This document shows positions 48,527 through 63,433 of a stretch of DNA of 64,000 nt, in pieces. The position numbers and the translations under genes were made by a program. The notes below the pieces were generated by a model. It had not been told where the DNA came from. It searched no databases and worked only from the letters and a program-made list of their open reading frames with translations. The stretch is from Treponema sp. Marseille-Q4130. GTDB lineage: Bacteria; Spirochaetota; Spirochaetia; Treponematales; Treponemataceae. How positions within the stretch are numbered: the stretch's first letter is position 1; each line of letters starts with the position of its first letter. The stretch is taken from NCBI RefSeq assembly GCF_014334325.1, contig NZ_JACSET010000002.1, forward strand, positions 1 to 64,000, written 5' to 3'.

Positions 48527-48540
48527 ATGTGTGCTATACT
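48512..48540 (+). promoter_or_regulatory. Promoter of the adenylate cyclase gene, inside the 3' end of rnc
   Basis: CTGACA (48512-48517), 17-bp spacer, TATACT (48535-48540) preceded by TGC. Ten bases to ATG 48551 give a leader of about 3 nt. Confidence 0.65.
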
Positions 48541-48550
48541 GAAAGGCAGT

Positions 48551-51391
48551 ATGGCACAGGAAAAGAAAACAAAAAAAAGCTCGTCTTTTTTTACATCACT
48601 CGGTTTTATCGTTCTCATTGCGACTGCCGCCGTTTTTTCGCTGCTCGGTGTTTTCGGTTTTTTTCAAAAACTCGATTACCGTATGTACGACCTTTTGCTC
48701 GGACTGCGAAAAGAGCCGAAACAATCGGAGAGGATTTTATTCGTCAACATCGATGACGACTCGATTCAAGCGCTCGGCGAATGGCCGTGGAGCCGCGACA
48801 TCATCGCCGATTGTCTTTTGCGCATACGCGAGCTCGGGGCGGAAAGCATCGTTTTCGATGTAGAATATCTTTCGCCTTCTCCGCGGGGAGTGGCGCCGAA
48901 CGCCGAAGAAAATATGGATGCGGCGATTTCGGCAGGCAGGAGCGACATCACCGATGTCATCAACGAGCTTTCCGAATCGGTGAGCCGCGGCTTCGTTTCC
49001 CGCGCGGAGCTTCCGGCAGTGACGAAAGATATGATCGCAAATTACATCGAGCCTGCGCTTTCAAATATGCAGGCCGATATCGCATCGAAAATATACCGCG
49101 ATAACGACGATTATTTTGCACGGGCGATTCAATTTTTCGGCAATACATGGCTTACCGTAAATACGCGCGATGTGGCGATCACGCTTTCCGATGAAGAAAG
49201 GACGTACGCGCAAAAACGCATTTTGCTGTCGAACGTCACCGATACCGGCGGTTTTATTTTGCGCGACAATCAGCATACGTCGGACGAACAGTATAACGGA
49301 CAAAAAACGGGATTCGCTCCCGCGCTCCACACGCTTATCGCTCGCGCATCAGGCGCGGGGTTTACGAACGTCGTCATCGACAGCGACGGCACGCGGCGGA
49401 GAATCGAACTGCTCTACGATTACGACGGAAAATACGCGGCTCAGCTTTCGTTTGCCCCGCTCTTGCGTACGCTCGATGCCGAACGTATGGAGCGTACGCG
49501 GAACTCGCTCATCGTATTCAACGCGCTTTTTCCGGGAGAGACGGAAAGAACGACCGTAAAGATACCGCTCGACAGCCGCGGGCGCATGCTTATCAACTGG
49601 CTGCACCGTGAGCAGGGAAAATCGTTTCGAAACGAATCGCTCGTCTTTTTAAAAGATCTCGATTTTATCGAAGAGGCCGTCGTCGCAACGCTCGGCAATA
49701 TACGCGGCAACGAACTGCTTGCTCCCGACGGAAGCGCGCTTGCCTATACGGGTGCTGCGGAAAAATTATTAAAACAATATAAAGCGATCGACGAAAAAAA
49801 GCAGGCGCTGCTTGCCAAGTGCGCAGGTTTCAACGAGGACGGAGAGCTCATCGACGGGATAAGCGCAGGCGAATACGAAAACTATTTTGCCGCGAGGGAA
49901 GCCTTTTACAACGATATCGGTTTGTTTATCGATGCGGGCTATATGAAAACGATCGATGATCGTATGAAAGAACTTTTAAAAGCGGGGCTGCAGCAAGAGC
50001 AAGCCGAGAGTTTTATCGACGTCATGAAAGAGCAATTCGACCTCCTTTCCGACAATTATAAAACCTATCTGCAGTACGTACACGATATGAAAGACGTATA
50101 CCGGGCGTCGTACTGCATCATCGGAAACACCGCATCGAGCACGACCGATCTCGGAACGAACCCCTTTACGCGAAGCTATCCGAATGTCGGCACGCATGCG
50201 AACGTTATGAACACGATTTTGCAGCGAGATTTTATCACGCCGTTGCCGTGGTATTACGGCATGATCGCAGCCTTTGTTTTAATGCTTTTCGTCATGTTTA
50301 TGACGTACGGCAGATCCGATGCGATGCAAAATACCGTAATCGGCATCGCAGTCTTCCTCATCCTGAGCGCCTTTATCCTTTTCATGGTTCTACCCGGTTA
50401 TTATATTCCTGCAGTTATACCCGGACTTTTTACGCTGTTCGTATATATCGCGGGGATTATTTTGCGCTTTGTGCACAGCGACAGGGAAAAGCGATTTTTG
50501 CGCCGCGCGTTTTCGACCTATCTTTCGAAAGACGTCGTCAATGCGATCGTCGAAGATCCCGAAAAACTTTCGCTCGGCGGAGAAGACAAACACATGACCG
50601 CTCTCTTTTCCGACATCAAAGGATTTTCGTCGTTCAGCGAACTCGTCACGCCGACGCAGCTCGTATCGATTTTAAACGAATACCTCGGCTTGCTCAGCGA
50701 TACGATTTTGAACTATAACGGCACGATCGATAAATACATCGGAGACGCGATCGTTTCGTTTTTCGGTGCACCGATCGATTTGCCCGATCATGCATATCGC
50801 GCCTGTGCCGCGGCTGTGCGCATGAAGCAGGCGGAAAAACTGTACAACGAACAGCACCTCGCACATAAGGATATTCCGCGCGAACTCGAAACGCGGATCG
50901 GCATCAACACGGGCAATATGGTCGTCGGAAACATGGGCACGAATATGAAGATGAATTACACGATTATGGGTAACGATGTCAACCTTGCGAGCCGTCTTGA
51001 AGGCGTTAATAAAATCTACAAGTCGTGGATCCTCGTTTCCGAGACGACGTGGAACGAAGCCGATTCGGGCGAACACAAAGGCGAACTCGTTTCCCGCAGG
51101 CTCGACAGAGTGCGCGTCGTCGGAATCAATAAGCCCGTACAGCTGTACAATATACTCGGCTTTAGAAGCGAAATGCCGCAGAACGAACTTGCGTCCCTCG
51201 ATGAATTCCACGAAGCGCTCGACAAATACCTCGCCCGCGATTTTAAAAAAGCGGGGAAGATGTTTATGAACGCGAATAAACTGAACCCTGCCGACGGAGC
51301 GTCTCTCGTGTTCGCCGAACGCTGTAAAGATTACCTCAAACAGGGTATCCCCGACGATTGGGACGGCGTGATGAATATGACGACGAAATAG
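48551..51391 (+). CDS. CHASE2-domain adenylate cyclase (class III)
   Basis: Membrane enzyme making cAMP, about 946 residues. TM1 near 15-40, large extracytoplasmic CHASE2 region (FVNIDDDSIQALGEWPWSRDIIAD...ESIVFDVEYLSP) to ~550, three helices near 560-650, cyclase domain about 690-870. Metal-binding Asp residues are in FSDIKGFS and GDAIVSFFG; Lys in IDKYIGD and Asp in GNDVNLASRLEG favour ATP over GTP. ATG 48551 is chosen since a promoter -10 lies between it and the earlier in-frame ATG 48527. The tail has a TPR-like segment. Homologues exist in other treponemes. Confidence 0.92.
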   Translation: MAQEKKTKKSSSFFTSLGFIVLIATAAVFSLLGVFGFFQKLDYRMYDLLLGLRKEPKQSERILFVNIDDDSIQALGEWPWSRDIIADCLLRIRELGAESIVFDVEYLSPSPRGVAPNAEENMDAAISAGRSDITDVINELSESVSRGFVSRAELPAVTKDMIANYIEPALSNMQADIASKIYRDNDDYFARAIQFFGNTWLTVNTRDVAITLSDEERTYAQKRILLSNVTDTGGFILRDNQHTSDEQYNGQKTGFAPALHTLIARASGAGFTNVVIDSDGTRRRIELLYDYDGKYAAQLSFAPLLRTLDAERMERTRNSLIVFNALFPGETERTTVKIPLDSRGRMLINWLHREQGKSFRNESLVFLKDLDFIEEAVVATLGNIRGNELLAPDGSALAYTGAAEKLLKQYKAIDEKKQALLAKCAGFNEDGELIDGISAGEYENYFAAREAFYNDIGLFIDAGYMKTIDDRMKELLKAGLQQEQAESFIDVMKEQFDLLSDNYKTYLQYVHDMKDVYRASYCIIGNTASSTTDLGTNPFTRSYPNVGTHANVMNTILQRDFITPLPWYYGMIAAFVLMLFVMFMTYGRSDAMQNTVIGIAVFLILSAFILFMVLPGYYIPAVIPGLFTLFVYIAGIILRFVHSDREKRFLRRAFSTYLSKDVVNAIVEDPEKLSLGGEDKHMTALFSDIKGFSSFSELVTPTQLVSILNEYLGLLSDTILNYNGTIDKYIGDAIVSFFGAPIDLPDHAYRACAAAVRMKQAEKLYNEQHLAHKDIPRELETRIGINTGNMVVGNMGTNMKMNYTIMGNDVNLASRLEGVNKIYKSWILVSETTWNEADSGEHKGELVSRRLDRVRVVGINKPVQLYNILGFRSEMPQNELASLDEFHEALDKYLARDFKKAGKMFMNANKLNPADGASLVFAERCKDYLKQGIPDDWDGVMNMTTK

Positions 51392-51453: not shown

Positions 51454-51801
51454 TTACGCTTCGATGATAATCGCTTCACTCACCGAATTTTCGATGCGTT
51501 TATTCCGAAAGTAAAGGCATATATCCGTCGTCACCATGATGATGTTCGGAATATAAAACCAAAAGGCGAGGTTGTATTTGTGCTCGAGGAGCTTTGCGCT
51601 TATGCCGCAGATATAGCCGAACGCGATAAAACACATAAACAAAAGGCTTTTGCCCTTTGTCGATTTCGATTTCAGCGAGCGGGCGATCGACATCGGCCAT
51701 GAAAGACCGAAGCATAAAATCATAATCGATTCGAGAATGCTCGCGGGGTAAAATACGCCGCCCTTTAAGATTCCGAGAAATTCAAGTACCTGATGTTCCA
51801 T
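51454..51801 (-). CDS. Small membrane protein, PQ-loop/SemiSWEET-like
   Basis: About 115 residues, with three or four hydrophobic segments. The sequence FGLSWPMSIARSLKSKSTKGKSLLFMCFIAFGYICG resembles a PQ-loop repeat with the Gln changed (WPMS). Role unknown; half-transporter or cargo-receptor functions are known for related folds. Two starts are possible: ATG 51801, and ATG 51813, which crowds the GGAGG site. It is downstream of, and on the opposite strand from, the cyclase. Confidence 0.6.
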   Translation of the reverse strand: MEHQVLEFLGILKGGVFYPASILESIMILCFGLSWPMSIARSLKSKSTKGKSLLFMCFIAFGYICGISAKLLEHKYNLAFWFYIPNIIMVTTDICLYFRNKRIENSVSEAIIIEA

Positions 51802-51838
51802 AGTTTTTATCATTCCTCCCTGTACAAATATATCGTTT

Positions 51839-53449
51839 TTAGAGTTCGCCGTCTCTATGCGTATAATGCGGCAAAAGGCGGGGTGAGCGCGATTGCGTTT
51901 TTATGCCTGCCGCCACCCTCTCTTTTTCGAAATCCTTTACGTGTTCGAGCGAAAGTTTTTGAGGCATCGCGTTTTTTTGCGCCTCTCGTGCGCCCGCCGT
52001 TCCCGCGATGCGTCCGAAGACGACAACGTCCAAAAGCGAGTTTCCCATGAGACGGTTCGTCCCGTGAATGCCGCCGGATGCTTCACCTGCGACGAAGAGG
52101 TTTCCGATATTCGTTTTGCACTCCCTGTCGATTTCGACGCCGCCGTTTTGATAGTGCAGGGTGGGGTAGACGAGGATCGGATCGCGCCTGATATCGATGT
52201 CGTATTTTTCGAACATGCGCAGCATCGCGGGTATGCGCTTTTCGATCGTGCCTTCTCCGTTTTTCAACTCGATCATCGGCGTGTCGAGCCATACGCCTTC
52301 TCCCATACCCGTCGGAATGCCCTTGCCTTTTTTTACTTCGCGGATGATGCCGGCCGCTTCCACGTCGCGCGTTTCAAGCGGATGGATAAAAGCATCCCCG
52401 TCGATATTGCACACTTTTGCGCCGAGTGAGCGCACTTTTTCCGTAACGAGCGCGCCGAACACTTGCTGCGGATAGGCGACGCCGGTCGGATGGTATTGGA
52501 GCGAATACTGATAGAGGAGTTTTGCGCCCGCGCGATACGCGAGCACGAGTCCGTCCGCCGTCGCGCCGTAGTGATTCGACGTCGGAAAGCCCTGATAGTG
52601 CATACGTCCGGCTCCCCCTGTCGCGATGATGACGGCTTTTGCCTTTGCGACGAGCAGCTCTTTCGTTTCTATGTTCATGAGCACGGCACCGGCACAGTTT
52701 CCTTTTTCATCTTTTAATAATTCCACCGCGCTCGTAAAATCGACGACGGTAATCCGCTCGGCGCGATTTAAAACTTCGTCGCGGAGCGTGCGCATGATTT
52801 CGGCGCCCGAATAATCTTTACACGCGTGCATGCGTTTTCTGCTCGTACCGCCTCCGTGCGTCGTAATCATCGTGCCGTCTTTTTCTTTGTCGAATTCGAC
52901 GCCGAGCGTGTTGAGCCACTGAATCGTTTCGGGCGCACGGGTGACGAGTTCGTAGACGAGTTCCTTTTTTGCGTCGAAGTGACCGCCGCCGAAAGCGTCG
53001 AGAAAATGCCGTTCGGGCGAATCGTTCGCTTTGTCGGCCGCTTGAATGCCGCCTTCGGCCATCATCGTGTTCGCATCTCCGACGCGGAGTTTTGTGACGA
53101 GGAGCACTTTTGCGCCCGCGTTGTCCGCTTCTATCGCCGCCGCCGTTCCCGCACCACCTCCTCCGATAATGAGTACGTCGGTTTCGTAATCGGCTTTCGT
53201 CAAATCGATTTTTTCAGGTTCTATGCGCGGCATGCCTTGTAAAATTTCCGCAAGCTCAAGCGGCGCTTTTTCACCCTTATTCGGCCCGATTTTAAGTTCG
53301 GTAAACTGCTCCGTTATATGATCGGGATGATATTCCCGCAGTACCGCCTCTTTTTCTTCAGCACTCATGCGGTGCGGTTCAAATGCGGCGTTTTCCTTTC
53401 TCTTTGCGGCGACCTTTTCCGCCGACTCTTTCATAATGCCCGTATACAT
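51839..53449 (-). CDS. Soluble fumarate reductase-like flavoprotein
   Basis: Reduces fumarate to succinate (family inference), 536 residues. An unusual ~90-residue N-terminal extension precedes the FAD motif GGGGAG (96-101). Active-site equivalents of E. coli FrdA are present: H320 (YHPTG), R361 (TRDVEAAG), H432 (LHYQNGG), R466 (HGTNRLMGNSLLD). The FAD-linking His is replaced by Asn127 (ANTMMAEGG), so FAD is probably non-covalent, which favours fumarate reduction over succinate oxidation. AAGGAG precedes the ATG. The iron-sulfur subunit is 19 nt upstream; no membrane-anchor subunit is present. Confidence 0.85.
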   Translation of the reverse strand: MYTGIMKESAEKVAAKRKENAAFEPHRMSAEEKEAVLREYHPDHITEQFTELKIGPNKGEKAPLELAEILQGMPRIEPEKIDLTKADYETDVLIIGGGGAGTAAAIEADNAGAKVLLVTKLRVGDANTMMAEGGIQAADKANDSPERHFLDAFGGGHFDAKKELVYELVTRAPETIQWLNTLGVEFDKEKDGTMITTHGGGTSRKRMHACKDYSGAEIMRTLRDEVLNRAERITVVDFTSAVELLKDEKGNCAGAVLMNIETKELLVAKAKAVIIATGGAGRMHYQGFPTSNHYGATADGLVLAYRAGAKLLYQYSLQYHPTGVAYPQQVFGALVTEKVRSLGAKVCNIDGDAFIHPLETRDVEAAGIIREVKKGKGIPTGMGEGVWLDTPMIELKNGEGTIEKRIPAMLRMFEKYDIDIRRDPILVYPTLHYQNGGVEIDRECKTNIGNLFVAGEASGGIHGTNRLMGNSLLDVVVFGRIAGTAGAREAQKNAMPQKLSLEHVKDFEKERVAAGIKTQSRSPRLLPHYTHRDGEL

Positions 53450-53468
53450 GTGTTCACGCTCCTTTTCG

Positions 53469-54146
53469 TCACGCTTCGATGTCGCGGCTGTTGTACAGCT
53501 CTTTGATTTGATCGATCGGCTTTGCCATAAGATTTTGAATCAGACTTTCGAATTTTCCGTCTTTGATCTCTCCGACGCGTTCGGTCAAATGCTTGGCTTC
53601 CGGCTGGATGTATTTGCCGTTTAAGCGGCGCGCGAGTTCGGCCACTTGCGGATGGCTGATTTCTGCCGGACAGCGCGACGAGCAGATGCCGCACATAACG
53701 CAGTCGAAAGATTCGTCCGCGCAGTTTTGAAATTCGCCGCGCTGCGCATAGGCGATGTACTGCATGACGTGCAAGTTCTGCGGGCACGCGCGCGTACAGG
53801 CATTGCAGCCGACACATGCGTAGATTTCGGGATAGAGCTCCATCATGATCCGCTGTTCGGCCGTGACCGCATCGATGTCGTACACTTGCTTTACGAGCGG
53901 AAAAAACGGCAGCGTCGCGATGTACATATTGTCGACGACTTTTGTCTGGCACGCCAAGCACGTGTACAGGTGGTTTTGTCCTTTGATGCGGTACACCGTT
54001 GCGCATGCGCCGCAAAAACCGTTTCTGCACCCGCAGCCGCGCACGAGTTCGTAACCGGCGTATTCCATCGCATTCATGATCGTCAGATGTTCGGGCACTT
54101 CGTATCGTTTCCCGAACAGGTAAATGTTTATCAATTTTTCCGACAT
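53469..54146 (-). CDS. Fumarate reductase iron-sulfur subunit (FrdB/SdhB/TfrB-like)
   Basis: Electron-transfer subunit, 225 residues. The N-terminal ferredoxin-like part has a [2Fe-2S] cysteine set (GCGCRNGFCGACATVY ... YTCLAC) and the C-terminal half has two cluster motifs, CVGCNACTRACP and CVMCGICSSRCP. The second motif set has no clear third-cluster Cys pattern of classical SdhB, so cluster types need testing. It lacks the HdrB-like domain of TfrB, but a separate HdrB is encoded upstream. It follows flxA by 63 bp. Confidence 0.85.
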   Translation of the reverse strand: MSEKLINIYLFGKRYEVPEHLTIMNAMEYAGYELVRGCGCRNGFCGACATVYRIKGQNHLYTCLACQTKVVDNMYIATLPFFPLVKQVYDIDAVTAEQRIMMELYPEIYACVGCNACTRACPQNLHVMQYIAYAQRGEFQNCADESFDCVMCGICSSRCPAEISHPQVAELARRLNGKYIQPEAKHLTERVGEIKDGKFESLIQNLMAKPIDQIKELYNSRDIEA

Positions 54147-54179
54147 GGCACAGTCCTCTTTAAATTATTAGATTCAATC

Positions 54180-54196
54180 CGTTTCGCTTACCAATC
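54180..54196. repeat. 17-bp motif upstream of the fumarate reductase genes, repeated upstream of fumC
   Basis: On the minus strand GATTGGTAAGCGAAACG, identical to 62303-62287. It lies 34-50 bp before the ATG at 54146 and includes a TTGGTA that could act as a -35. Confidence 0.45.
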
Positions 54197-54209
54197 GACA
54201 TATCGTCCG

Positions 54210-55037
54210 TCAATATTCGGGCGGAAGGGCTCCGAGTTCGTCGAACGAAAACACCGGCCCGTCTTTACATACGTATTTGTCGCCGATATTGCACCTGCCG
54301 CATTTTCCGATGCCGCATTTCATACGCATCTCCATCGTCGTAAATATCTGCGTATCTTTAAAGCCGAGCTCTTTGAGTCCGGCGAGCGTCAAGTGGATGA
54401 GGATGGGCGGACCGCACATGATCGCCGTCATACTCGTGTCGGGGTTGAGCTCTTTGACATAGGGCGGCACAAAACCGACGTGACCGTCCCAATCGTCTTG
54501 AGCTTTATCGATCGTCAAATATACGGTAAAGTCCGGAGCTTTCATCCACTCTTCGGTGATCTCTTTGTACGCGACAAGATCCTGTTTCGAGCGCGAACCG
54601 TAAACGATCGTCACTTTGCCGTAATCGCTTCGGTGAGAACGGACGTAGTTGATAACGCTTCGAAGCGGAGCGAGACCTATACCGCCTGCGACAAAGAGCA
54701 AGTCTTTGCCTTTAAAAACGGTGTCGACGGGAAAGCCGTTTCCGAGCGGACCTCTCACGCCTATCTCCTGTCCTTCTTCGGCCGCATGCAGCCACGACGT
54801 GACGCATCCGCATTTTTTTATGCTGAACTCCTGATATGCTTCGACCGTCGGAGAGGACGTTATCGAAATCATTGAATCCCCGACGCCCGGAACGGAGAGT
54901 ATCGCGCACTGACCGGGCTTGTGGTAAAACAATTTTTTTCCGTCGCGTCCGACCACGCGGAAAGTCTTTACGTCTCCCGTTTCATCGCGTATGTCGGTGA
55001 TTACGCCGATGTACGGAATCAACATGTCATTTTCCAT
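54210..55037 (-). CDS. flxA: FlxA-like FAD/NAD(P)H oxidoreductase subunit
   Basis: Probable NADH-oxidising subunit of the Flx module, 275 residues. Ferredoxin-reductase fold: flavin-binding region ending PGQCAILSVPGVGDSMISITSSP, nucleotide-binding LLFVAGGIGLAPLRSVI and VTIVYGSRS. The C-terminal [2Fe-2S] cysteine set is MKCGIGKCGRCNIGDKYVCKDGP, as in PyrK/AsrB. GGAGG lies 6 nt before ATG 55037, which overlaps flxB by 11 nt. Confidence 0.88.
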   Translation of the reverse strand: MENDMLIPYIGVITDIRDETGDVKTFRVVGRDGKKLFYHKPGQCAILSVPGVGDSMISITSSPTVEAYQEFSIKKCGCVTSWLHAAEEGQEIGVRGPLGNGFPVDTVFKGKDLLFVAGGIGLAPLRSVINYVRSHRSDYGKVTIVYGSRSKQDLVAYKEITEEWMKAPDFTVYLTIDKAQDDWDGHVGFVPPYVKELNPDTSMTAIMCGPPILIHLTLAGLKELGFKDTQIFTTMEMRMKCGIGKCGRCNIGDKYVCKDGPVFSFDELGALPPEY

Positions 55038-56094
55038 CGTGTACCTCCGGCTTTTCGATTCGGGTGTCGTCGTTTATCGTTTTCATAACTTTTACGATGT
55101 TCATGCGGATGGGGCAGCTTTCGAGGCATCTTCCGCAGCCGACGCAGCTGTAAACGCCGCCGTGATCCATCGGATAATACACGAGCTTGTGCATAAAGCG
55201 CTGACGGAAGCGCTCCTTTTGCGTGTGCCGCGGATTTTCCGCCGCCATCTTCGTAAAGTCCGAAAACATACAGCTGTCCCAGCAGCGAAACTGCCGTATG
55301 CCGCATCCGGTATCGAAACTCCTGATGTCAAAACACATACACGTCGGACACACGTATGTACAAGTGCCGCAGCCCAAGCACGCTTCCGAAAGGTTTTCCC
55401 ACACCGGCAGATTGAAAATCGAAAGCATGTTTTCGCCGCGAAATTTCGAAAGGTCGATATCGACGAAAGGCAGTTTGTCGATTTTTTCCCGCGTCGCCTT
55501 TTGCTGTTTTTCGACGATATCCGCGCCGCTCTCGCTCGTCATGCTTTTGATGATTTCGATAAACGCGTCTCCCTTTTCGGTGTTTGCGCGAAAAAAGACC
55601 TTTCCGTCTGCGATCCACGCGCTCGCATCTCCTTGCGGCTCGGCAGCATCGATGCCGTAGAGTTTACAAAAACAGGTTTCTTTCGGTTCCGAGCAGGCGA
55701 GCGTGACGACGGTGCCGTGTTCACGCCGCGTTTTGTAGTAGGTGTCGACCGGCTGCATATTGATGTACACGTCGTCGACGATCGCAAAACTTGCAGCGTC
55801 GCACGCGCGTACGCCGAAAACGATAAAATCTTCCGATTCGGTACGCGGATCTTCGACTTCGATTTTTTTGCCCGAAAGCTTGTAGTGTACGAGGTTTTCG
55901 ATTTTCGGAAAGAAAAAATCTTTTGCCGATCTCACCGTTTTAAGCTCGGACGAAAGGACGTCGCCTTTTTCCCAGCGTTTAAAATCGGCTTTACCCGATG
56001 CGTCGTCTACGGGAATATACAGCGCTTCCTTTTGTGCGATGAGGGCAAAGAGCTCGTCGAGTTTTTCAAACGGCAGCGATACGAAAGTTCTCAT
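55027..56094 (-). CDS. flxB: FlxB-like 4Fe-4S subunit (AsrA-like)
   Basis: 355 residues. The first ~210 residues resemble AsrA/hydrogenase-associated proteins (GVRACDAASFAIVDDVYI; VTLACSEPKETCFC), followed by two cluster motifs, CLGCGTCTYVCPTCMC and CVGCGRCLESCPIRM. It passes electrons between FlxA and the Hdr part in the Flx-Hdr model. GGAGG precedes the ATG; it overlaps flxC by 4 nt. Confidence 0.82.
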   Translation of the reverse strand: MRTFVSLPFEKLDELFALIAQKEALYIPVDDASGKADFKRWEKGDVLSSELKTVRSAKDFFFPKIENLVHYKLSGKKIEVEDPRTESEDFIVFGVRACDAASFAIVDDVYINMQPVDTYYKTRREHGTVVTLACSEPKETCFCKLYGIDAAEPQGDASAWIADGKVFFRANTEKGDAFIEIIKSMTSESGADIVEKQQKATREKIDKLPFVDIDLSKFRGENMLSIFNLPVWENLSEACLGCGTCTYVCPTCMCFDIRSFDTGCGIRQFRCWDSCMFSDFTKMAAENPRHTQKERFRQRFMHKLVYYPMDHGGVYSCVGCGRCLESCPIRMNIVKVMKTINDDTRIEKPEVHDGK

Positions 56095-57065
56095 AAGGTA
56101 CCTCCCGAACGCGAATAAATGATGCCGGGTTCGGCATCGCCCGTCCTATACGTGAGCATCGGCGGCTTTGTCTCCATATCGCTTCCCGCCGTATAAGAAC
56201 CGTAGAGTTCGTCGATGTCTTTAATAAATTTTCGATTGATGAGGTGCAACGGGATATGCTGGGGACACACGCGAGAGCATTCGCCGCAGTCGGTACAACG
56301 GCCTGCAACGTGCCACGCGCGGATGATATGGTACATGCTCTCTTCGAAACTCGAAGCGGCGACTTTTTGTGCAGCGCCGGATGCGGGGTTGTCGAATACG
56401 CACGTCGTACAAGTACAGGCGGGACAGACGTCGCGGCACGCATTGCAGCGGATACAGCGCGAAAGTTCGTTTTGCCAAAACGCAAAGCGCTCTTCTTCCG
56501 TCATCGCTTCGAGCTTTGCAACTTCGTCGAAGCGCGCGGAATCCCGGACGTCTCCGTCTTCTCCGATAAGTTCGTCGCAGCCGATGTGTTTTTTGCTTTT
56601 GCACACGGCGCAGCGTTCGGACAACTCTTTTTTTTCGGGGTCTTTCATGCCGTCGCACGGAACGCCGATCGCGTATACGTCGCTTCTGAAAATGCGGTGT
56701 TCTTTCAGCAATTCGGTAAAGCTGTAGGTATCGCAGGGTTTTAAAAACATGAGTATTTTCGCTTCGGGTTCCGCCTGTGTTTCGGCGTTTGCGTCTTTTT
56801 GTTTTGCAAGCGCGTTGTTCGCACGCACGGTATTTTTCGCCGTTTCGATTTTGCGCGTTTCTTTGACGAGGTATTTCGACAGGTTCGCCGCGCTGTATTC
56901 GTTGTATACGAAGTTTTTTTCGACATCGTCCGCCGACGTAAAAAGCGAAGGCGTTACATCGTAATCGAAAAGGCCTCTTCTCCAGCCGAGCACGAGCTGT
57001 ACGGTTTTATCCGCAAGCAGCGCTTTTGTGCGGCTTACCAATTCGCCGGTCATTTCGCTTTGCAT
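56091..57065 (-). CDS. flxC: FlxC-like 4Fe-4S subunit
   Basis: 324 residues. The N-terminal part, with ILMFLKPCDTYSFTELLKEH and VYAIGVPCDGM, resembles F420-hydrogenase beta-type and lactate-utilisation proteins. The C-terminal half has cluster motifs CIRCNACRDVCPACTC and CTDCGECSRVCPQHI. GGAGG lies 7 nt before ATG 57065, and it overlaps flxD by 16 nt. In Flx-Hdr systems this subunit sits between FlxD and FlxB. Confidence 0.82.
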   Translation of the reverse strand: MQSEMTGELVSRTKALLADKTVQLVLGWRRGLFDYDVTPSLFTSADDVEKNFVYNEYSAANLSKYLVKETRKIETAKNTVRANNALAKQKDANAETQAEPEAKILMFLKPCDTYSFTELLKEHRIFRSDVYAIGVPCDGMKDPEKKELSERCAVCKSKKHIGCDELIGEDGDVRDSARFDEVAKLEAMTEEERFAFWQNELSRCIRCNACRDVCPACTCTTCVFDNPASGAAQKVAASSFEESMYHIIRAWHVAGRCTDCGECSRVCPQHIPLHLINRKFIKDIDELYGSYTAGSDMETKPPMLTYRTGDAEPGIIYSRSGGTL

Positions 57066-57550
57066 CGTAAATCCTCCAGCCGTTTGTTTTCTCCGAGCGC
57101 CGTTACCGTTTCGACGAACTCATGCATCGTTTTGGCAAATTTAGCGCCTTCCGCCGCGGACACCCATTCGACTCTCGTTCTCCCTTTTTCGATGCCGAGA
57201 AATTCGAGCATGGAAAAGAGGAGCGTCATGCGCCGTCTCGCAAAATAGTTGCCGCTCGTATAGTGACAGTCTCCCGGGTGACAGCCGCAGAGGATGACGC
57301 CGTCGGCTCCCCGCTGAAACGCGCGCAGGATAAAGATCGGGTTCAGGCGGCACGAACAGGGAATACGGATGATTTTGACGTCGGCCGGATATTCGAGGCG
57401 ATTGCTGCCGGCCAAATCCGCTCCCGCGTACGAACACCAGTTGCAGCAAAAGGCTACGATCTTCGGTTTGAATGCACCTTTTTTTTCGAGAACATCGTTT
57501 CCGGCAGCCGCATCGACAGTCTTCGGCTGCATATCGTTTTTTACAGACAT
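57050..57550 (-). CDS. flxD: MvhD/FlxD-type iron-sulfur linker subunit
   Basis: 166 residues. MvhD family hallmarks: IVAFCCNWCSYAGADLAG, IIRIPCSCRLNPIFILRAFQRGADGVILCGCHPGDCHY. These cysteines bind a [2Fe-2S] cluster that carries electrons from the NADH or hydrogenase module into HdrA. No hydrogenase subunits follow, so the Flx module is the likely donor. It overlaps hdrA by 10 nt. Confidence 0.92.
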   Translation of the reverse strand: MSVKNDMQPKTVDAAAGNDVLEKKGAFKPKIVAFCCNWCSYAGADLAGSNRLEYPADVKIIRIPCSCRLNPIFILRAFQRGADGVILCGCHPGDCHYTSGNYFARRRMTLLFSMLEFLGIEKGRTRVEWVSAAEGAKFAKTMHEFVETVTALGENKRLEDLRCKAK

Positions 57551-59544
57551 AAAGCATCGACCTCCGCCATGATTTCTTTATTCGTAAATCCTTTGAGATC
57601 CATCGCTCCCGAGGGACAGGCGACTGTACACGCGCCGCAGCCTTGACAGACGGCGGGGTTTACCTGCGCGACTCGGCGCGTCACCGTCGTGCGGTTTATG
57701 CCTCGGAAATCTTTATCGATATACGTGATCGCACCGTAGGGACACACGTTTTCGCACTGCGAGCAGCCGTTACACATCGCTTCGTCGGATTCGGCGACGC
57801 AGGGATTGTTTTTCAGTTTATCCTTTACAAGCAATCCGATAACTTTGCTCGCCGCCGCGCTTGCCTGCGAAACCGTTTCGGGTATATCCTTCGGCCCCTG
57901 CGCACAGCCTGAAAGATAGACGCCGGCAGTCGGGCTTTCGACGGGGCGGAGTTTCGGATGCGCTTCGGTAAAAAAGTCGTTCGTGTCCATACTCGCAGTG
58001 AGCATCGTCGCCAATGAGCGCGCGGACTTATCCGCTTCGATGGAAGCGGCGAGTACGACCATGTCGGCTTTGATATGCACTTGTTTATCCATGAGCAGAT
58101 CCGAGCCTTGCACGTCGAGAGTACCGTCTTCTTCGACGGATACTTTTCCGACCATGCCTTTGATATAGTGCACGCCGTACTGTTCAACCGCTCTCCGGTA
58201 GAATTCGTCGAAGTTTTTTCCCGGTGTACGCACGTCGATATAAAACACGTAACACTCCGTATCGGGGTAGTGGTCTCTCGTGAGGATCGCGTGCTTTGCC
58301 GTGTACATACAGCATATTTTCGAACAGTATTCGTGACCCTTTTCCGCATCCGCCGAACAGCGGCTTCCGACGCATTGGACGAATACGATCGTTTTGGGAT
58401 GCCTGCCGTCGGAAGGGCGGAGCAGGGTGCCGCCGGTAGGCCCCGCCGCATTCATGAGGCGTTCGAATTCGAGGGATGATACGACGTCTTTGCTCTGCGA
58501 ATACGCGAACTCGTCGAACTTCGACAAGTCGATCGGATTGTAGCCGGTCGCGGCGACGATGGCTCCGTATTTTTCTTCAATGAACGTATCTTTCGCACCG
58601 TAGTCGATCGCCTTCGCCTGACACACCATCGAACAGACGCCGCATTTTCCCGACGTGAGCTTCATGCAGTGTGCGGCATCGATCGTCGCGATTTTCGGAA
58701 CGGCTTGTGCAAAGGGAATATAGATCGCGGAGCGCTTGTCGAGATTCATATTGAATTCGTTCGGCACTTTTTTTTGCGGACACTTTTGCACGCATTCGCC
58801 GCAGCCCGTACATTTCGTTTCGTCGACGTAGCGCGCTTTGCGTTTTATCGTCACCGTAAAGTTTCCGACGAATCCTTTGATATCCGTCACTTCGCTGTAC
58901 GAGAGGATTCTGATATTTTCATTTTGCCCGCATTCGACCATGCGCGGCGTGAGGATACAGGCCGCACAGTCGAGCGTCGGAAAGGTTTTGTCGAGCTGCG
59001 CCATTTTGCCGCCGATCGTCGGCTTCGCTTCGACGATGTCTACCGGAAACCCCGCGTCCGCGATGTCGATCGCCGTCTGAATGCCCGCGATACCTCCGCC
59101 GATGACGAGAGCGCGCTTGGTGACCGGCGTTTCGCCCGCAGTGAGCGGTTCGTTCAACAGCACTTTTGCGATCGCAGCTTTTCCGAGCGAAATCGCCTTT
59201 GCCGTTGCCGTCGGCATATCTTTGCATATCCACGAATCCTGCTCTCGGATGTTCGCTACTTCGAGCAGATAGGGATTGATACCCGCTTTTTCCGCACACT
59301 TTCGGAATGTCGCTTCGTGCATACGAGGCGAACAGGAACACACGACAACTCCGCCGAGCTCATGTTTTTTTATCGTGTCGGCGATGAGATCCTGACCCGT
59401 CTGCGAGCACATATAGGTGTAGTCCGTCGAAAAGACGACGCCCGCTTCTTTTCCGAGCGCGTCCGCGACGGCTTTTACATCGACCGTGCCCGCTATATTC
59501 GTGCCGCAGTGGCACACAAAAACTCCGATTTTCCGCATACTCAC
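57541..59544 (-). CDS. hdrA: Heterodisulfide reductase subunit A (bifurcating flavoprotein)
   Basis: Site of flavin-based electron bifurcation in Hdr complexes, 667 residues. N-terminal Cys-rich domain (VCHCG; CSCSPRMHE), FAD-binding GGGIAGIQTAIDIADAG and VEAKPTIGGKMAQLDKTFPTLDCAAC, inserted ferredoxin motif CTGCGECVQKCP, and the C-terminal pair CNGCSQCENVCP and CQGCGACTVACP. All expected clusters for electron entry and the ferredoxin branch are present. It overlaps hdrC by 4 nt. Confidence 0.95.
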   Translation of the reverse strand: MSMRKIGVFVCHCGTNIAGTVDVKAVADALGKEAGVVFSTDYTYMCSQTGQDLIADTIKKHELGGVVVCSCSPRMHEATFRKCAEKAGINPYLLEVANIREQDSWICKDMPTATAKAISLGKAAIAKVLLNEPLTAGETPVTKRALVIGGGIAGIQTAIDIADAGFPVDIVEAKPTIGGKMAQLDKTFPTLDCAACILTPRMVECGQNENIRILSYSEVTDIKGFVGNFTVTIKRKARYVDETKCTGCGECVQKCPQKKVPNEFNMNLDKRSAIYIPFAQAVPKIATIDAAHCMKLTSGKCGVCSMVCQAKAIDYGAKDTFIEEKYGAIVAATGYNPIDLSKFDEFAYSQSKDVVSSLEFERLMNAAGPTGGTLLRPSDGRHPKTIVFVQCVGSRCSADAEKGHEYCSKICCMYTAKHAILTRDHYPDTECYVFYIDVRTPGKNFDEFYRRAVEQYGVHYIKGMVGKVSVEEDGTLDVQGSDLLMDKQVHIKADMVVLAASIEADKSARSLATMLTASMDTNDFFTEAHPKLRPVESPTAGVYLSGCAQGPKDIPETVSQASAAASKVIGLLVKDKLKNNPCVAESDEAMCNGCSQCENVCPYGAITYIDKDFRGINRTTVTRRVAQVNPAVCQGCGACTVACPSGAMDLKGFTNKEIMAEVDALCL

Positions 59545-59936
59545 TTCCTATACTTTCTGAATGCGCTGACGATCGCTTGCTGCGGCATATCGCCGTCGAT
59601 ATAAAGCGGCACTTTTTCCGCGGCGAGGCGTTCCGCACCCCGCTCTCGTTCGACGACGGTGCGCACCGCTTCTACGATCTTCGCAGGTTCGACTTGGCGC
59701 GGACATCTTTCCATGCACGCAAAACACGACAGACAACGGTACGTCGATTCCGTTTTCAAAAGCGCTTCGATATCGCCGGTTTCGACCATGTGTACGAATT
59801 CGTGCGGGTGATATTCCATATCGTCGTAGGACGGGCAAGTACCCGAACACTTTCCGCACTGCATACACTTGCGCACGTTTACTCCGCTGACCGAAAGTAT
59901 TTCATCGCGGATTTTATTGAGTTCAGACTGCAGCAC
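59541..59936 (-). CDS. hdrC: Heterodisulfide reductase subunit C
   Basis: 131 residues. Two [4Fe-4S] motifs, CMQCGKCSGTCP and CLSCFACMERCP. It connects HdrA to HdrB. It overlaps hdrB by 14 nt and hdrA by 4 nt, indicating strict co-expression. Confidence 0.94.
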   Translation of the reverse strand: MLQSELNKIRDEILSVSGVNVRKCMQCGKCSGTCPSYDDMEYHPHEFVHMVETGDIEALLKTESTYRCLSCFACMERCPRQVEPAKIVEAVRTVVERERGAERLAAEKVPLYIDGDMPQQAIVSAFRKYRK

Positions 59937-60741
59937 GGCATTGCTCCTTGACGCCGAGCGCTTCGGCGAGCAGTTCGGTAAAATACAGAACGCTTACGTT
60001 TTCAGCGCTCCGATTTTTTACGAGATTATAACGGCAAAGCGGGCAGGCGGTGACGAGCAGCTCGGCTCCCTGCGATTCGGCGTTATCCAAAATCTTTTTG
60101 CACCGTTTTTCGGGAATGTCTCCGCCGTCGAACATCGTGTACGCGCCGCAGCATTCGTTCCGAAGCGAATAGCGCACAGGTGTCGCTCCGATCGCCGATA
60201 TAAAATCTTCGAGGATGCTCGGATTTTCCGGATCGTCCATCTTCATAACGCGTCCCGGCCGCAAAAGGAGACAGCCGTAGTACGCTCCGATTTTTTTGCC
60301 CGCAAGCGGCTTCGTCACTTTCGCTTTGACGTTTTCCCAGCCGACCGCGTCGCGCAGCACTTCGAGATAGTGCAGCACCTTCGTTTCCCCGTGATAGGAG
60401 ATGCCGTCATTTTTAAAATAGTTGTTGACTTTTACGATGACATTGTCGTCCCGCCTCATATCGTCGTTTACCTGCTTTATGACGTTGTGACACGCCGAGC
60501 ATATCGTAACGAGTTCCCTCTTCGCATCGCGGGCGGCCGCAAGTGCGCGCACCGATGAAAGCTTCGTCGCGATTTCGTCTTTTGCCAGCGGATAGGTTCC
60601 GCCGCAGCACTGCCAATCGGGAATCTCTTCGAGCGTAAACCCGAGCGCTTCAGCCGATGAACGGGCATAGCGATCCAAATCGATCGCTTTGTTTCGAAGC
60701 GTGCATCCCGGAAAATACGAATATATACGGTGATCGTCCAT
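59923..60741 (-). CDS. hdrB: Heterodisulfide reductase subunit B (two CCG domains)
   Basis: Disulfide-type active-site subunit, 272 residues. Two complete CCG sets: GCTLR...QCCGG...CSAC and GCLLLRP...ECCGAY...CPLC, which bind the two non-cubane clusters. All catalytic cysteines are kept, so a real disulfide or thiol-linked acceptor is expected. ATG 60741 (MDDHRIYSYFPGC) is preferred, with GAGGGG upstream; the longer frame adds 24 unconvincing residues. fumC ends 78 bp upstream without a strong terminator. Confidence 0.94.
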   Translation of the reverse strand: MDDHRIYSYFPGCTLRNKAIDLDRYARSSAEALGFTLEEIPDWQCCGGTYPLAKDEIATKLSSVRALAAARDAKRELVTICSACHNVIKQVNDDMRRDDNVIVKVNNYFKNDGISYHGETKVLHYLEVLRDAVGWENVKAKVTKPLAGKKIGAYYGCLLLRPGRVMKMDDPENPSILEDFISAIGATPVRYSLRNECCGAYTMFDGGDIPEKRCKKILDNAESQGAELLVTACPLCRYNLVKNRSAENVSVLYFTELLAEALGVKEQCRAAV

Positions 60742-60819
60742 ACTCAAAAACCCCTCAATAAAACTTTTCTCCGAGCGCGTCGTGCTCTTTGCAAAGCCCG
60801 TCGCATCCGGCACCGCGCT

Positions 60820-62211
60820 TCAACGCTTTACGCCCGCCATTTCTTCGGGATGAAAAACTTCGTCGAATTTTTCCGCAGTCAAAAAACCGAGCGATACGCA
60901 TGCGTCTTTCAGCGAAATGTTTTCTTCATACGCTTTGTGACTCGTCTTTGCCGCGTTTTCGTAGCCGATGTACGGGTTCAGCGCGGTGACGAGCATGAGC
61001 GAATTGTAGAGGTTGAAGTGCATCTTTTCTTTGTTCGCCGTAATGCCCGACGCGCAGTTGTCGTTGAACGACACGATCGCTTCGGAAAGCAGGCGTACCG
61101 ACTGCAAAAAATTATACGCGATAACCGGCATAAATACGTTGAGTTCGAAATTGCCCTGGCTCGCGCCGATACCGACGGCAACGTCGTTTCCCATCACTTG
61201 CACCGCGACCATCGTCACCGCTTCGCACTGCGTCGGATTGACTTTTCCCGGCATGATAGAAGAGCCCGGCTCGTTTTCGGGAATGTGTATTTCGCCGAGA
61301 CCGCAGCGCGGCCCCGAAGCGAGCCAGCGAACATCGTTTGCGATTTTTAATAAATCCGCCGCGAGCGCTTTTACTCCTCCGTGCGCAAAGACGATTTCAT
61401 CTTTACTCGTGAGCGCGTGAAATTTATTAGGAGCCGTGATAAAGCGCTTTCCGGTGAGAGAAGACAGTTCTTCGGCAACTTTTACGTCGAAGCCTCGAGG
61501 CGCGTTGAGTCCCGTACCGACGGCTGTACCGCCGAGTGCGAGCTCTTTCAATTCGGGAAGCGCGAGTGAAATGAGGGTTTTGTCTTTTTCGAGGGACGTC
61601 CGCCAGCCGCTTATCTCCTGTGCGAACGAAATCGGGACGGCATCCTGCAAGTGCGTGCGCCCGCTTTTGACGACGTTTTCGTTTACCGCTTCGAGCTTTT
61701 TAAACGTCGATACAAGCAAGTCGATCGCCGGAAAGAGTTTATCTTCGATTTCGACGACGGCTGCGATGTGCATCGCCGTCGGAAAAGTGTCGTTGCTCGA
61801 CTGACTCATATTGACGTCGTCGTTCGGATGACAGAGCTTTTTACCCGCGATTTCGTTTGCGCGGTTTGCGATCACTTCGTTCGCGTTCATATTCGACTGC
61901 GTGCCGCTTCCCGTCTGCCATACGACGAGCGGAAAGTGTTTGTCGAGCTTTCCTTCGATCACTTCGTCGCAGGCTTTTTCTATGCACGAAAGTTTTTCCG
62001 CCGTCATCTTTTCAGGCTTCAGCGCACAGTTCGCACGCGCGGCGGCTTTTTTCAAATGCCCGAACGCTTTTGTGATCTCGCGCGGCATCGTTTCAATGCC
62101 GACACCGATACGGAAATTTTCATGGCTGCGCTCGGTTTGCGCTCCCCAATATTTGTCGGCAGGAACTTTTACTTCTCCCATCGAATCGTGTTCAATTCTG
62201 AAATCGCCCAT
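60820..62211 (-). CDS. fumC: Fumarate hydratase, class II
   Basis: Interconverts malate and fumarate, 463 residues. Fumarase/aspartase signature GSSIMPGKVNP near 318 with catalytic Ser, plus TGSGTQSNMNANEV and SSNDTFPTAMHIAAV. Class II is oxygen-stable and cluster-free. It is the first gene of the run that continues with hdrBCA-flxDCBA-frd, so malate-to-fumarate conversion is linked to fumarate reduction. Confidence 0.96.
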   Translation of the reverse strand: MGDFRIEHDSMGEVKVPADKYWGAQTERSHENFRIGVGIETMPREITKAFGHLKKAAARANCALKPEKMTAEKLSCIEKACDEVIEGKLDKHFPLVVWQTGSGTQSNMNANEVIANRANEIAGKKLCHPNDDVNMSQSSNDTFPTAMHIAAVVEIEDKLFPAIDLLVSTFKKLEAVNENVVKSGRTHLQDAVPISFAQEISGWRTSLEKDKTLISLALPELKELALGGTAVGTGLNAPRGFDVKVAEELSSLTGKRFITAPNKFHALTSKDEIVFAHGGVKALAADLLKIANDVRWLASGPRCGLGEIHIPENEPGSSIMPGKVNPTQCEAVTMVAVQVMGNDVAVGIGASQGNFELNVFMPVIAYNFLQSVRLLSEAIVSFNDNCASGITANKEKMHFNLYNSLMLVTALNPYIGYENAAKTSHKAYEENISLKDACVSLGFLTAEKFDEVFHPEEMAGVKR

Positions 62212-62485: not shown

Positions 62486-63433
62486 CTAAAACCGAATTTG
62501 CTTGATCGCGTCTTTTAAACAGTCCGCGCTGCGCCGCATCTGTACGATTTCCATATCGGAAAGGGGTGCGAGCAAGTGCCCGTGAAAACCCGTGCGGCCG
62601 ACAACGGAAAGCATGGAAAGGCAGACGTCTTTAATGCCGTATTCGCCGTTCGCCATGGCGGAAACGGTGAGCGTCGTATCGGCGGCGTTATTGATGCAGT
62701 CGACAATGTGCGCGACCGAAATCGCCACCGCGTAAAAGGTCGCCCCTTTACGCTCGATGATCTTCCCGCCGGAACTTCGAATATAGGATTCGACTTCGTC
62801 GTGGACGAGAGGAGAAATGGGTTTGTCGCTGTCTTCACGGCAGGATTTGTATTCGTCGACGGGAATCGTTGCGATATTTGCGAGCGACCACGGAATAAAC
62901 GATGAATCGCCGTGTTCTCCGAAAACGTAGGCGTGTACGTTTTGCTGTGCGATGTGATAGTATTCGGCAATGCAGGAGCGAAGGCGGGCGGTATCGAGGA
63001 TCGTTCCGGAACCGAAAATTTGATTTTGCGGCAGTCCCGACATTTTGTAAAATTGATATGTCAGAATATCGACGGGATTCGAAACGATGACGTAGATCGC
63101 CGTCGAAGCGTACTTGACGATTTCGGGGATGATGCTCTTCGTGATGTCGACGTTCGTCTGCGCCAAATCCAGCCGCGTTTGTCCCGGTTTCCGTGCGACG
63201 CCCGATGTCAGAACGACGATATCGGAATCTTTTGCATCGGCGTATGTCCCTGCATAGATGGTTACGGGATCACAGAACGGCGTACCCTGACTGATGTCGA
63301 GCGCTTCGCCCAAGGCTTTTTGCGTGTTGATATCGATCATCACGATTTCAGAAGCTATGCCTTTTACGGTGAGCGCATACGCGATCGTAGAGCCGACTTG
63401 ACCGGCCCCGATGATTGTGACTTTGAATGCCAA
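62486..63433 (-). CDS. L-lactate/malate dehydrogenase family protein
   Basis: NAD-dependent 2-hydroxyacid dehydrogenase, 315 residues. Start is TTG 63433, needed to include the NAD motif GAGQVGSTIAYAL; AGAGGA lies upstream. Catalytic His175 (EHGDSS) and Arg152 are present. The specificity loop reads ARKPGQTR: Arg81 is at the position (102 in LDH numbering) where lactate dehydrogenases have Gln and malate dehydrogenases have Arg, while the EHGDS context is LDH-like. Next to fumC, malate formation from oxaloacetate is plausible. Confidence 0.88.
   Translation of the reverse strand: MAFKVTIIGAGQVGSTIAYALTVKGIASEIVMIDINTQKALGEALDISQGTPFCDPVTIYAGTYADAKDSDIVVLTSGVARKPGQTRLDLAQTNVDITKSIIPEIVKYASTAIYVIVSNPVDILTYQFYKMSGLPQNQIFGSGTILDTARLRSCIAEYYHIAQQNVHAYVFGEHGDSSFIPWSLANIATIPVDEYKSCREDSDKPISPLVHDEVESYIRSSGGKIIERKGATFYAVAISVAHIVDCINNAADTTLTVSAMANGEYGIKDVCLSMLSVVGRTGFHGHLLAPLSDMEIVQMRRSADCLKDAIKQIRF

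Follow-up and report, generated by a model that had tools for sequence, protein, structure and literature searches.

An operon of Treponema sp. Marseille-Q4130 with genes for HdrABC-FlxABCD, fumarase and a soluble fumarate reductase: a probable NADH-dependent bifurcating fumarate reductase

The HdrABC-FlxABCD complex of Desulfovibrio vulgaris is the described system in which, as Ramos reportedly set out in 2015, a DsrC-type disulfide has been proposed as the electron acceptor; we know of no fumarate reductase attached to it. All seven of its genes are shared with the window analyzed here, a stretch of 64,000 nucleotides from the spirochaete Treponema sp. Marseille-Q4130 (contig NZ_JACSET010000002.1, positions 1 to 64,000), where they lie within a run of ten genes (51839-62211, minus strand) that begins with a fumarase gene, fumC, and ends with the genes for an iron-sulfur protein and a flavoprotein of the fumarate reductase type, frdB and frdA. 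On the evidence given below we consider it probable that the product of this operon is a soluble fumarate reductase that is driven by NADH and bifurcates electrons at a flavin.

Gene sets of this kind have been described before. The account of the operon from Pseudoclostridium thermosuccinogenes is said to originate from a 2019 preprint by Koendjbiharie and van Kranenburg. The “succinate operon” of that organism is listed as fumarase, Flx-Hdr complex and fumarate reductase together, and a coupling of succinate formation to ferredoxin reduction was proposed for it as a hypothesis accompanied by transcript data (PMC7282089). Compared by gene content, it has the same make-up as the window (fumarase, hdrABC, flxABCD and frdAB) and is likewise followed by a gene of hypothetical product that might transport succinate; P. 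thermosuccinogenes is a Clostridium, whereas the window comes from a spirochaete. In the tubeworm symbionts (Endoriftia and others), tfrAB and korABCD are interspersed with flxABCD-hdrABC and a complex was suggested (PMC6315080), and direct electron delivery has been restated with a DsrC-like protein as the alternative route (PMC11636981). The reductive tricarboxylic acid cycle cluster of Endoriftia thus resembles the window in pairing Hdr-Flx with a fumarate reductase and in the direct transfer proposed for it, but differs in its autotrophic setting with kor and in the DsrC-like alternative. Further arrangements include an SdhA near HdrBC and a hydrogenase in Culexarchaeia (PMC9723716), the Mvh-Hdr of WOR-3, which was assigned to the CoB-CoM heterodisulfide (PMC12542636), and MvhADG-HdrABC and MetFV-HdrABC-MvhD, which like the window are built around HdrA, with modules for donor and acceptor that can be exchanged, but whose acceptors differ, being heterodisulfide and methylene-tetrahydrofolate (with ferredoxin marked as uncertain; PMC5861303). 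As for the methanogen TfrAB, TfrA is the closest NCBIfam model to the flavoprotein of the window, and the TfrB model joins iron-sulfur and CCG-like parts, whereas FrdB of the window has no CCG part and HdrB is a separate protein.

The operon therefore joins an arrangement already proposed in other bacteria, one which recurs in many anaerobes, and our survey extends it far past the published cases found. An earlier note on this DNA, made from the sequence alone, knew of no described complex of such make-up; both the gene set and the idea of bifurcation had already been published (PMC7282089, PMC6315080 and PMC11636981). The literature searched, in the parts seen, contained no biochemical test of the Hdr-Flx-fumarate reductase arrangement.

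Ten open reading frames (ORFs) form one packed run in the order fumC-hdrB-hdrC-hdrA-flxD-flxC-flxB-flxA-frdB-frdA. The same ten genes had been named in the earlier note, and their place and order were borne out, with Pfam (matches at E <= 1e-3) and NCBIfam models assigning each to the expected family:

60820..62211, minus strand: fumC, fumarate hydratase of class II, forming fumarate from malate; TIGR00979, 708 bits, above cut-off; first in the packed run
59923..60813, minus strand: hdrB, CCG-domain protein, start codon uncertain; PF02754, two stretches
59541..59936, minus strand: hdrC, two [4Fe-4S] clusters; TIGR03290, 67.7 bits, under cut-off; eight Cys kept
57541..59544, minus strand: hdrA (HdrA2), FAD protein, bifurcation site by homology; NF040770, 787 bits, under the cut-off of 1100
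57050..57550, minus strand: flxD (MvhD/FlpD type), connects the donor module with HdrA; PF02662, 181.5 bits
56091..57065, minus strand: flxC, iron-sulfur protein; Fer4_8; position conserved
55027..56094, minus strand: flxB, iron-sulfur protein; Fer4_22, 99 bits; sulfhydrogenase beta-subunit family, 171 bits, under cut-off
54210..55037, minus strand: flxA, NAD(P)H-binding flavoprotein; NAD_binding_1 and DHODB_Fe-S_bind
53469..54146, minus strand: frdB, [2Fe-2S] and, twice, a complete CxxCxxCxxxCP motif, without a CCG domain; Pfam/NCBIfam and 12 conserved ligand Cys
51839..53449, minus strand: frdA, FAD_binding_2 fumarate-reductase flavoprotein; best NCBIfam model TfrA, 354 bits, under the cut-off of 718

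Computed from mechanical ORF starts, the intergenic gaps from fumC to frdA are 6, -14, -4, -10, -16, -4, -11, 63 and 19 nt, with overlaps of 4 to 16 nt at six of the nine junctions; given such tight spacing, fumC to frdA is likely one transcription unit. Scans for promoters and terminators gave about as many matches as in shuffled sequence. Since most relatives of HdrB align only from about residue 24-31, the true start of hdrB may sit some 70 nt downstream of the mechanical one.

The HdrABC-FlxABCD gene set is complete, with hdrA, hdrB, hdrC, flxA, flxB, flxC and flxD encoded together, and the cluster ligands of HdrB and HdrC are conserved. The ten Cys predicted to bind the non-cubane clusters of HdrB are kept in all 32 near rows of the alignments and in 60-61 of the 61 far ones, its five relatives in the PDB are all HdrB subunits, and all CCG matches in the window's own genome (2.79 Mb, with the window on contig 11; E <= 1e-3) fall in HdrB alone. 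The eight Cys of HdrC are conserved in all 91 rows. HdrA aligned over residues 4-663 to the HdrA of 5odc, with 669 bits; 5odc we take to be a complex that bifurcates.

FrdA is extended at its N terminus by about 87 residues, its alignment to Escherichia coli FrdA beginning at residue 88. H320, T336, R340, R361, H432 and R466 align with the substrate and proton-donor residues of the E. coli protein, roles which we assume to be as known there, and are invariant wherever a row has a letter (123-125 of 128 rows). What we take to be the position of the covalent-FAD His of complex II is Asn127, and no other residue occurs there in the 125 of 128 rows that have a letter; a change of this type, from His to Asn at the covalent-FAD site, favors fumarate reduction over succinate oxidation in E. 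coli. The 12 Cys that are the cluster ligands of FrdB are kept in 80/80 far and 52/52 near rows. In complex II the [3Fe-4S] center goes with a non-Cys residue in the last motif; the last CxxCxxCxxxCP of FrdB is complete in all 80 far rows, which gives no sign of such a center. FrdB shows no PF02754 (CCG) match at E <= 1e-3, and is 225 aa long against the 488 positions of the TfrB model; this model weakly matches both FrdB (model positions 19-94, 46 bits) and HdrB (244-487, 35 bits; cut-off 385), and from this split methanogen TfrB would seem to combine the counterparts of the two proteins in a single chain. Among the best 60 of 76 PDB chains found for FrdB, none aligns along its whole length. 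The closest named relative found, L162 (uncultured Spirochaetaceae bacterium), shares 73% identity in FrdA and in FrdB.

Other identities for the pair were considered and rejected. Complex II or a quinol:fumarate reductase does not fit, there being no Sdh_cyt match, no covalent-FAD His and no 3Fe-4S motif; scores against the equivalog models of SdhABE, the 8-methylmenaquinol:fumarate reductase, also fall short (227 of 1100 bits for the flavoprotein, 153 of 500 for SdhE). TfrAB proper was set aside because FrdB has no CCG part, and L-aspartate oxidase because the best NadB model gave FrdA 272 bits against 354 for TfrA; NadB, to our knowledge, has no FrdB partner. FrdA-like matches in the genome number 16 in all; the four other proteins examined (L004-L007; contigs C12, C1 and C14) resemble, by eye, exported FMN- and FAD-containing fumarate or urocanate reductases.

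The operon holds no dsrC, hydrogenase or membrane anchor, as the earlier note had said. Across the whole genome at E <= 1e-3 there was no match to DsrC, which the note had named as a gene that might be found elsewhere in the genome and speak against it, nor to Sdh_cyt (PF01127), the one anchor family searched; DsrC was rejected as the electron acceptor because it was not found. The genome does encode, outside the window's operon, RnfC (the one Rnf subunit searched), one [FeFe] hydrogenase and a GTP-type PEP carboxykinase (GTP-PEPCK). A soluble, DsrC-free function from NADH to fumarate and ferredoxin is thus a well supported prediction: this part of the earlier interpretation stood, through conservation and the lack of DsrC and Sdh_cyt matches, while the claim to novelty fell.

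A genome survey had been set beforehand as a test, and the adjacency of hdr-flx and frdBA proved not to be limited to the strain of the window. Among 32 loci of the same family (20 chosen for long contigs and 12 from a second set of 16), the nine genes from hdrB to frdA occur in order in 30, the two exceptions being L046, which is cut by a contig end, and L054, which is split; fumC lies 5' of hdrB in 27 of those 30, with L055, L056 and L057 having no fumC there. In a draw of 392 genomes across the phylum (FrdB at E <= 1e-20, HdrB at E <= 1e-15), FrdB was found in 49 and HdrB in 69. Within the genus (49 genomes, the window's own included), 34 have both proteins, one has FrdB only, none has HdrB only and 14 have neither (Fisher p 2e-11, uncorrected for kinship); in the single FrdB-only genome, G073, FrdB is encoded where a contig ends, and flxA is cut off by that end. 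In other genera of the family, FrdB was found in ten genomes and HdrB in the same ten. Two genomes, G003 and G399, have FrdB and HdrB on separate contigs, and there the hdr-flx side reaches a contig end. In the other families of the order, no FrdB match was better than 1.3e-9 (194 relatives searched). A spirochaete locus from another family, L076, carries fumarase-hdrA~mvhD-hdrC-hdrB-frdB-frdA, with a fumarase of class I type; a search for flxABC at this locus gave no match, and an aldehyde:ferredoxin oxidoreductase-like gene is also present.

The distribution at greater distance was addressed with 80 loci, the best of 364 relatives from an FrdB profile search of genome contigs; the query was centered on a distant spirochaete FrdB, and records near the window's genome may be left out. 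The labels KorA/B/C, MvhA/G and class I fumarase come from profiles each grown from one locus, and were checked on single KorB, MvhA and MvhG examples and two KorA examples, those of MvhA, MvhG and KorB scoring under cut-offs. The 80 loci represent 20 named phyla, bacterial as well as archaeal, and 16 of the loci are unranked. In the orientation of frdB we found frdA in 74, hdrB in 60, hdrC in 58, hdrA in 56, flxD in 52, KorA in 27, flxA in 20 and MvhA in 17; on the opposite strand hdrB was found in none, hdrA in one and flxA in two. KorA marks a 2-oxoacid:ferredoxin oxidoreductase, an enzyme that consumes reduced ferredoxin. In 38 of the 80, the labelled gene closest to frdB in the 600 nt on its 5' side is hdrB, and in 47 a single run (gaps <= 400 nt) holds hdrA, hdrB and frdAB. 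Chance adjacency of hdr-flx and frd was rejected on these strand data and the co-occurrence within the genus.

The donor genes vary around this unit. Flx, for NADH, is found at 20 loci and MvhA, of a [NiFe] hydrogenase, at 17 (in the same run at 13 of these), and no locus has both. A quick tree built from 79 FrdA rows calls for at least 14 changes of the donor label, and for at least five between Flx and Mvh; on well-supported branches alone there are six changes for Flx, six for HdrABC-only and four for Mvh. The label was missing in 16 of the 79 rows, and the “no donor” labels are doubtful because short contigs may conceal a donor. As judged from the Flx/Mvh changes on this tree, HdrABC-FrdAB is the constant unit and the electron donor has been swapped around it. 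Six loci (L101, L104, L111, L113, L117 and L134) carry hdrA-mvhD-mvhG-mvhA-hdrC-hdrB-frdB-frdA together with genes for a 2-oxoacid:ferredoxin oxidoreductase, and these probably represent an H2-driven version. In the WOR-3 loci L092, L096 and L105, hdrABC adjoins frdBA.

In the mechanism that we propose, FlxABC would take electrons from NADH, entering at FlxA, and FlxD would hand them on to the FAD in HdrA. There each pair would be split: one electron would reduce ferredoxin, and its partner would travel by way of HdrC, HdrB and FrdB to FrdA, where fumarate would be reduced to succinate. Fumarate would be supplied by FumC and, probably, a malate dehydrogenase encoded upstream, and reduced ferredoxin would then be consumed by Rnf, with ion pumping, or by the hydrogenase. 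With standard potentials of +33 mV for fumarate, -320 mV for NADH and -420 mV for ferredoxin (PMC5861303), our arithmetic gives about -49 kJ/mol for 2 NADH + fumarate + Fd under standard conditions. A single physical complex, direct transfer from HdrB to FrdB, bifurcation and the direction of flow are what we infer, direct transfer seeming the more economical route.

Several observations weigh against this proposal. Both five-cysteine CCG motifs of HdrB are intact, so that a disulfide substrate is possible. In four genomes (G048, G034, G273 and G474) the seven-gene hdrBCA-flxDCBA block and the frdBA pair lie apart and cannot be transcribed together; that both are nevertheless retained supports a link between them, but a loose functional one would fit too. 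Ten of the 80 distant loci (L093, L094, L095, L115, L130, L146, L153, L158, L165 and L166) have no hdrA, hdrB, flxA/B or mvhA on the frdB strand, and although several of these are on short contigs, L166 spans 20.7 kb and L165 19.2 kb; flxAB lies on the strand opposite frdB in L093 and L095, and L153 has flxD and flxC. Of the 25 genomes from other families in which HdrB-like matches occur, 21 lack an FrdB match and four have one, which indicates that HdrB has other partners and is predicted also to serve other systems. In the symbionts, tfrAB expression departed from that of the rest of the cluster (PMC11636981).

These points bear on the alternatives, which overlap. The intact CCG motifs and the four genomes with separated blocks would suit an Hdr-Flx that reduces a small disulfide other than DsrC, the dithiol then feeding FrdAB as a separate thiol-carrier enzyme, and the methanogen TfrAB is itself thiol-driven; but such a detour is made less likely by an FrdB without the CCG match expected for thiol oxidation in a genome whose only CCG protein found is HdrB and in which DsrC was not found, as well as by hdrB being the labelled gene closest to frdB on its 5' side in 38 distant loci, and we regard it as unlikely. 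Still less probable is shared regulation only, with FrdAB fed by ferredoxin or flavodoxin and Hdr-Flx used for another purpose: the ten loci lacking hdrA, hdrB, flxA/B and mvhA on the frdB strand, and frdBA without Hdr in the fetched DNA of L166 and L165, are what it would expect, whereas the joint presence or absence of FrdB and HdrB across the genus, the strand bias of hdrB (60 versus 0) and the donor swaps around a constant HdrABC-FrdAB are not.

Two further alternatives keep the complex and change what it does. Transfer of NADH to fumarate is exergonic by itself on the potentials given above (PMC5861303), and all electrons could in principle pass to fumarate with no ferredoxin reduced; a full-length HdrA so near that of 5odc, the ferredoxin-using Kor genes on the frdB strand in 27 of 80 loci and RnfC in the genome speak against this, and we give it little credence. 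Flow might also run in reverse, with electrons from succinate and reduced ferredoxin confurcated onto NAD+ (or H+) in the manner of syntrophs that oxidize succinate. Complexes of the HdrA type can work in both directions, and several of the surveyed lineages may be syntrophs; however, fumC, the probable malate dehydrogenase and GTP-PEPCK make up a reductive branch, and the Asn of FrdA in place of the covalent-FAD His points the same way, so that reverse flow appears improbable here. The bifurcating, NADH-dependent fumarate reductase thus remains the reading that we prefer.

Extended to the distant loci, the proposal takes a broader form, towards which we lean only slightly: FrdAB would serve HdrABC as a terminal-acceptor module that is widespread among Bacteria and Archaea, forming one family of soluble bifurcating fumarate reductases with interchangeable donors (NADH by way of Flx, H2 by way of Mvh, and others), the reduced ferredoxin often passing to a neighboring 2-oxoacid:ferredoxin oxidoreductase, and fumarate would be the missing high-potential acceptor for many of the HdrABC sets to which CoM-S-S-CoB or an unknown disulfide is at present assigned. 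In the literature searched, where excerpts were available and coverage of subscription papers and preprints is thin, there was no description of a donor-swapping Mvh/Flx-HdrABC-FrdAB family. The reductions listed as driving ferredoxin reduction are those of crotonyl-CoA, caffeyl-CoA and heterodisulfide (PMC5861303); if the proposal is true, fumarate reduction would be added to these membrane-free steps, the calculated ATP yield of succinate fermentation would change for gut spirochaetes and others, and the HdrABC of organisms that lack DsrC or coenzyme M would gain a candidate acceptor, with WOR-3 as an example.

Two minus-strand genes flank the operon:

62486..63433, minus strand: probable malate dehydrogenase on a lactate dehydrogenase scaffold, 274 nt 5' of fumC; lactate dehydrogenase models, but Arg instead of Gln
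51454..51813, minus strand: small membrane-like protein of 119 aa, possible succinate exporter (speculative), 25 nt 3' of frdA; sub-threshold PQ-loop and CTP_transf_1 matches

By NCBIfam the product of 62486-63433 is an L-lactate dehydrogenase (339 bits, above cut-off). However, at a position where the L-lactate dehydrogenases 2zqy and 1a5z show Gln in the alignment, this protein and its 27 aligned neighbors carry Arg (28/28 rows), and the sole other paralog found in the genome has Gln; at that site Gln presumably marks lactate dehydrogenases and Arg malate dehydrogenases, so that the protein is probably a malate dehydrogenase rather than a lactate dehydrogenase. Its gene is a conserved neighbor, perhaps with a transcript of its own. 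With a probable malate dehydrogenase near fumC and frdAB, the neighborhood probably encodes a path from oxaloacetate through malate and fumarate to succinate. The 119-aa protein has matches in eight fetched loci, directly 3' of frdA in seven (L041, L090, L091, L083, L085, L088 and L162) and elsewhere in L084; a role as succinate exporter is speculative. Beyond it, a CHASE2-guanylate cyclase gene (48527-51391, plus strand) faces the operon, and L053, L090 and L091 also have related genes on the far side of frdA.

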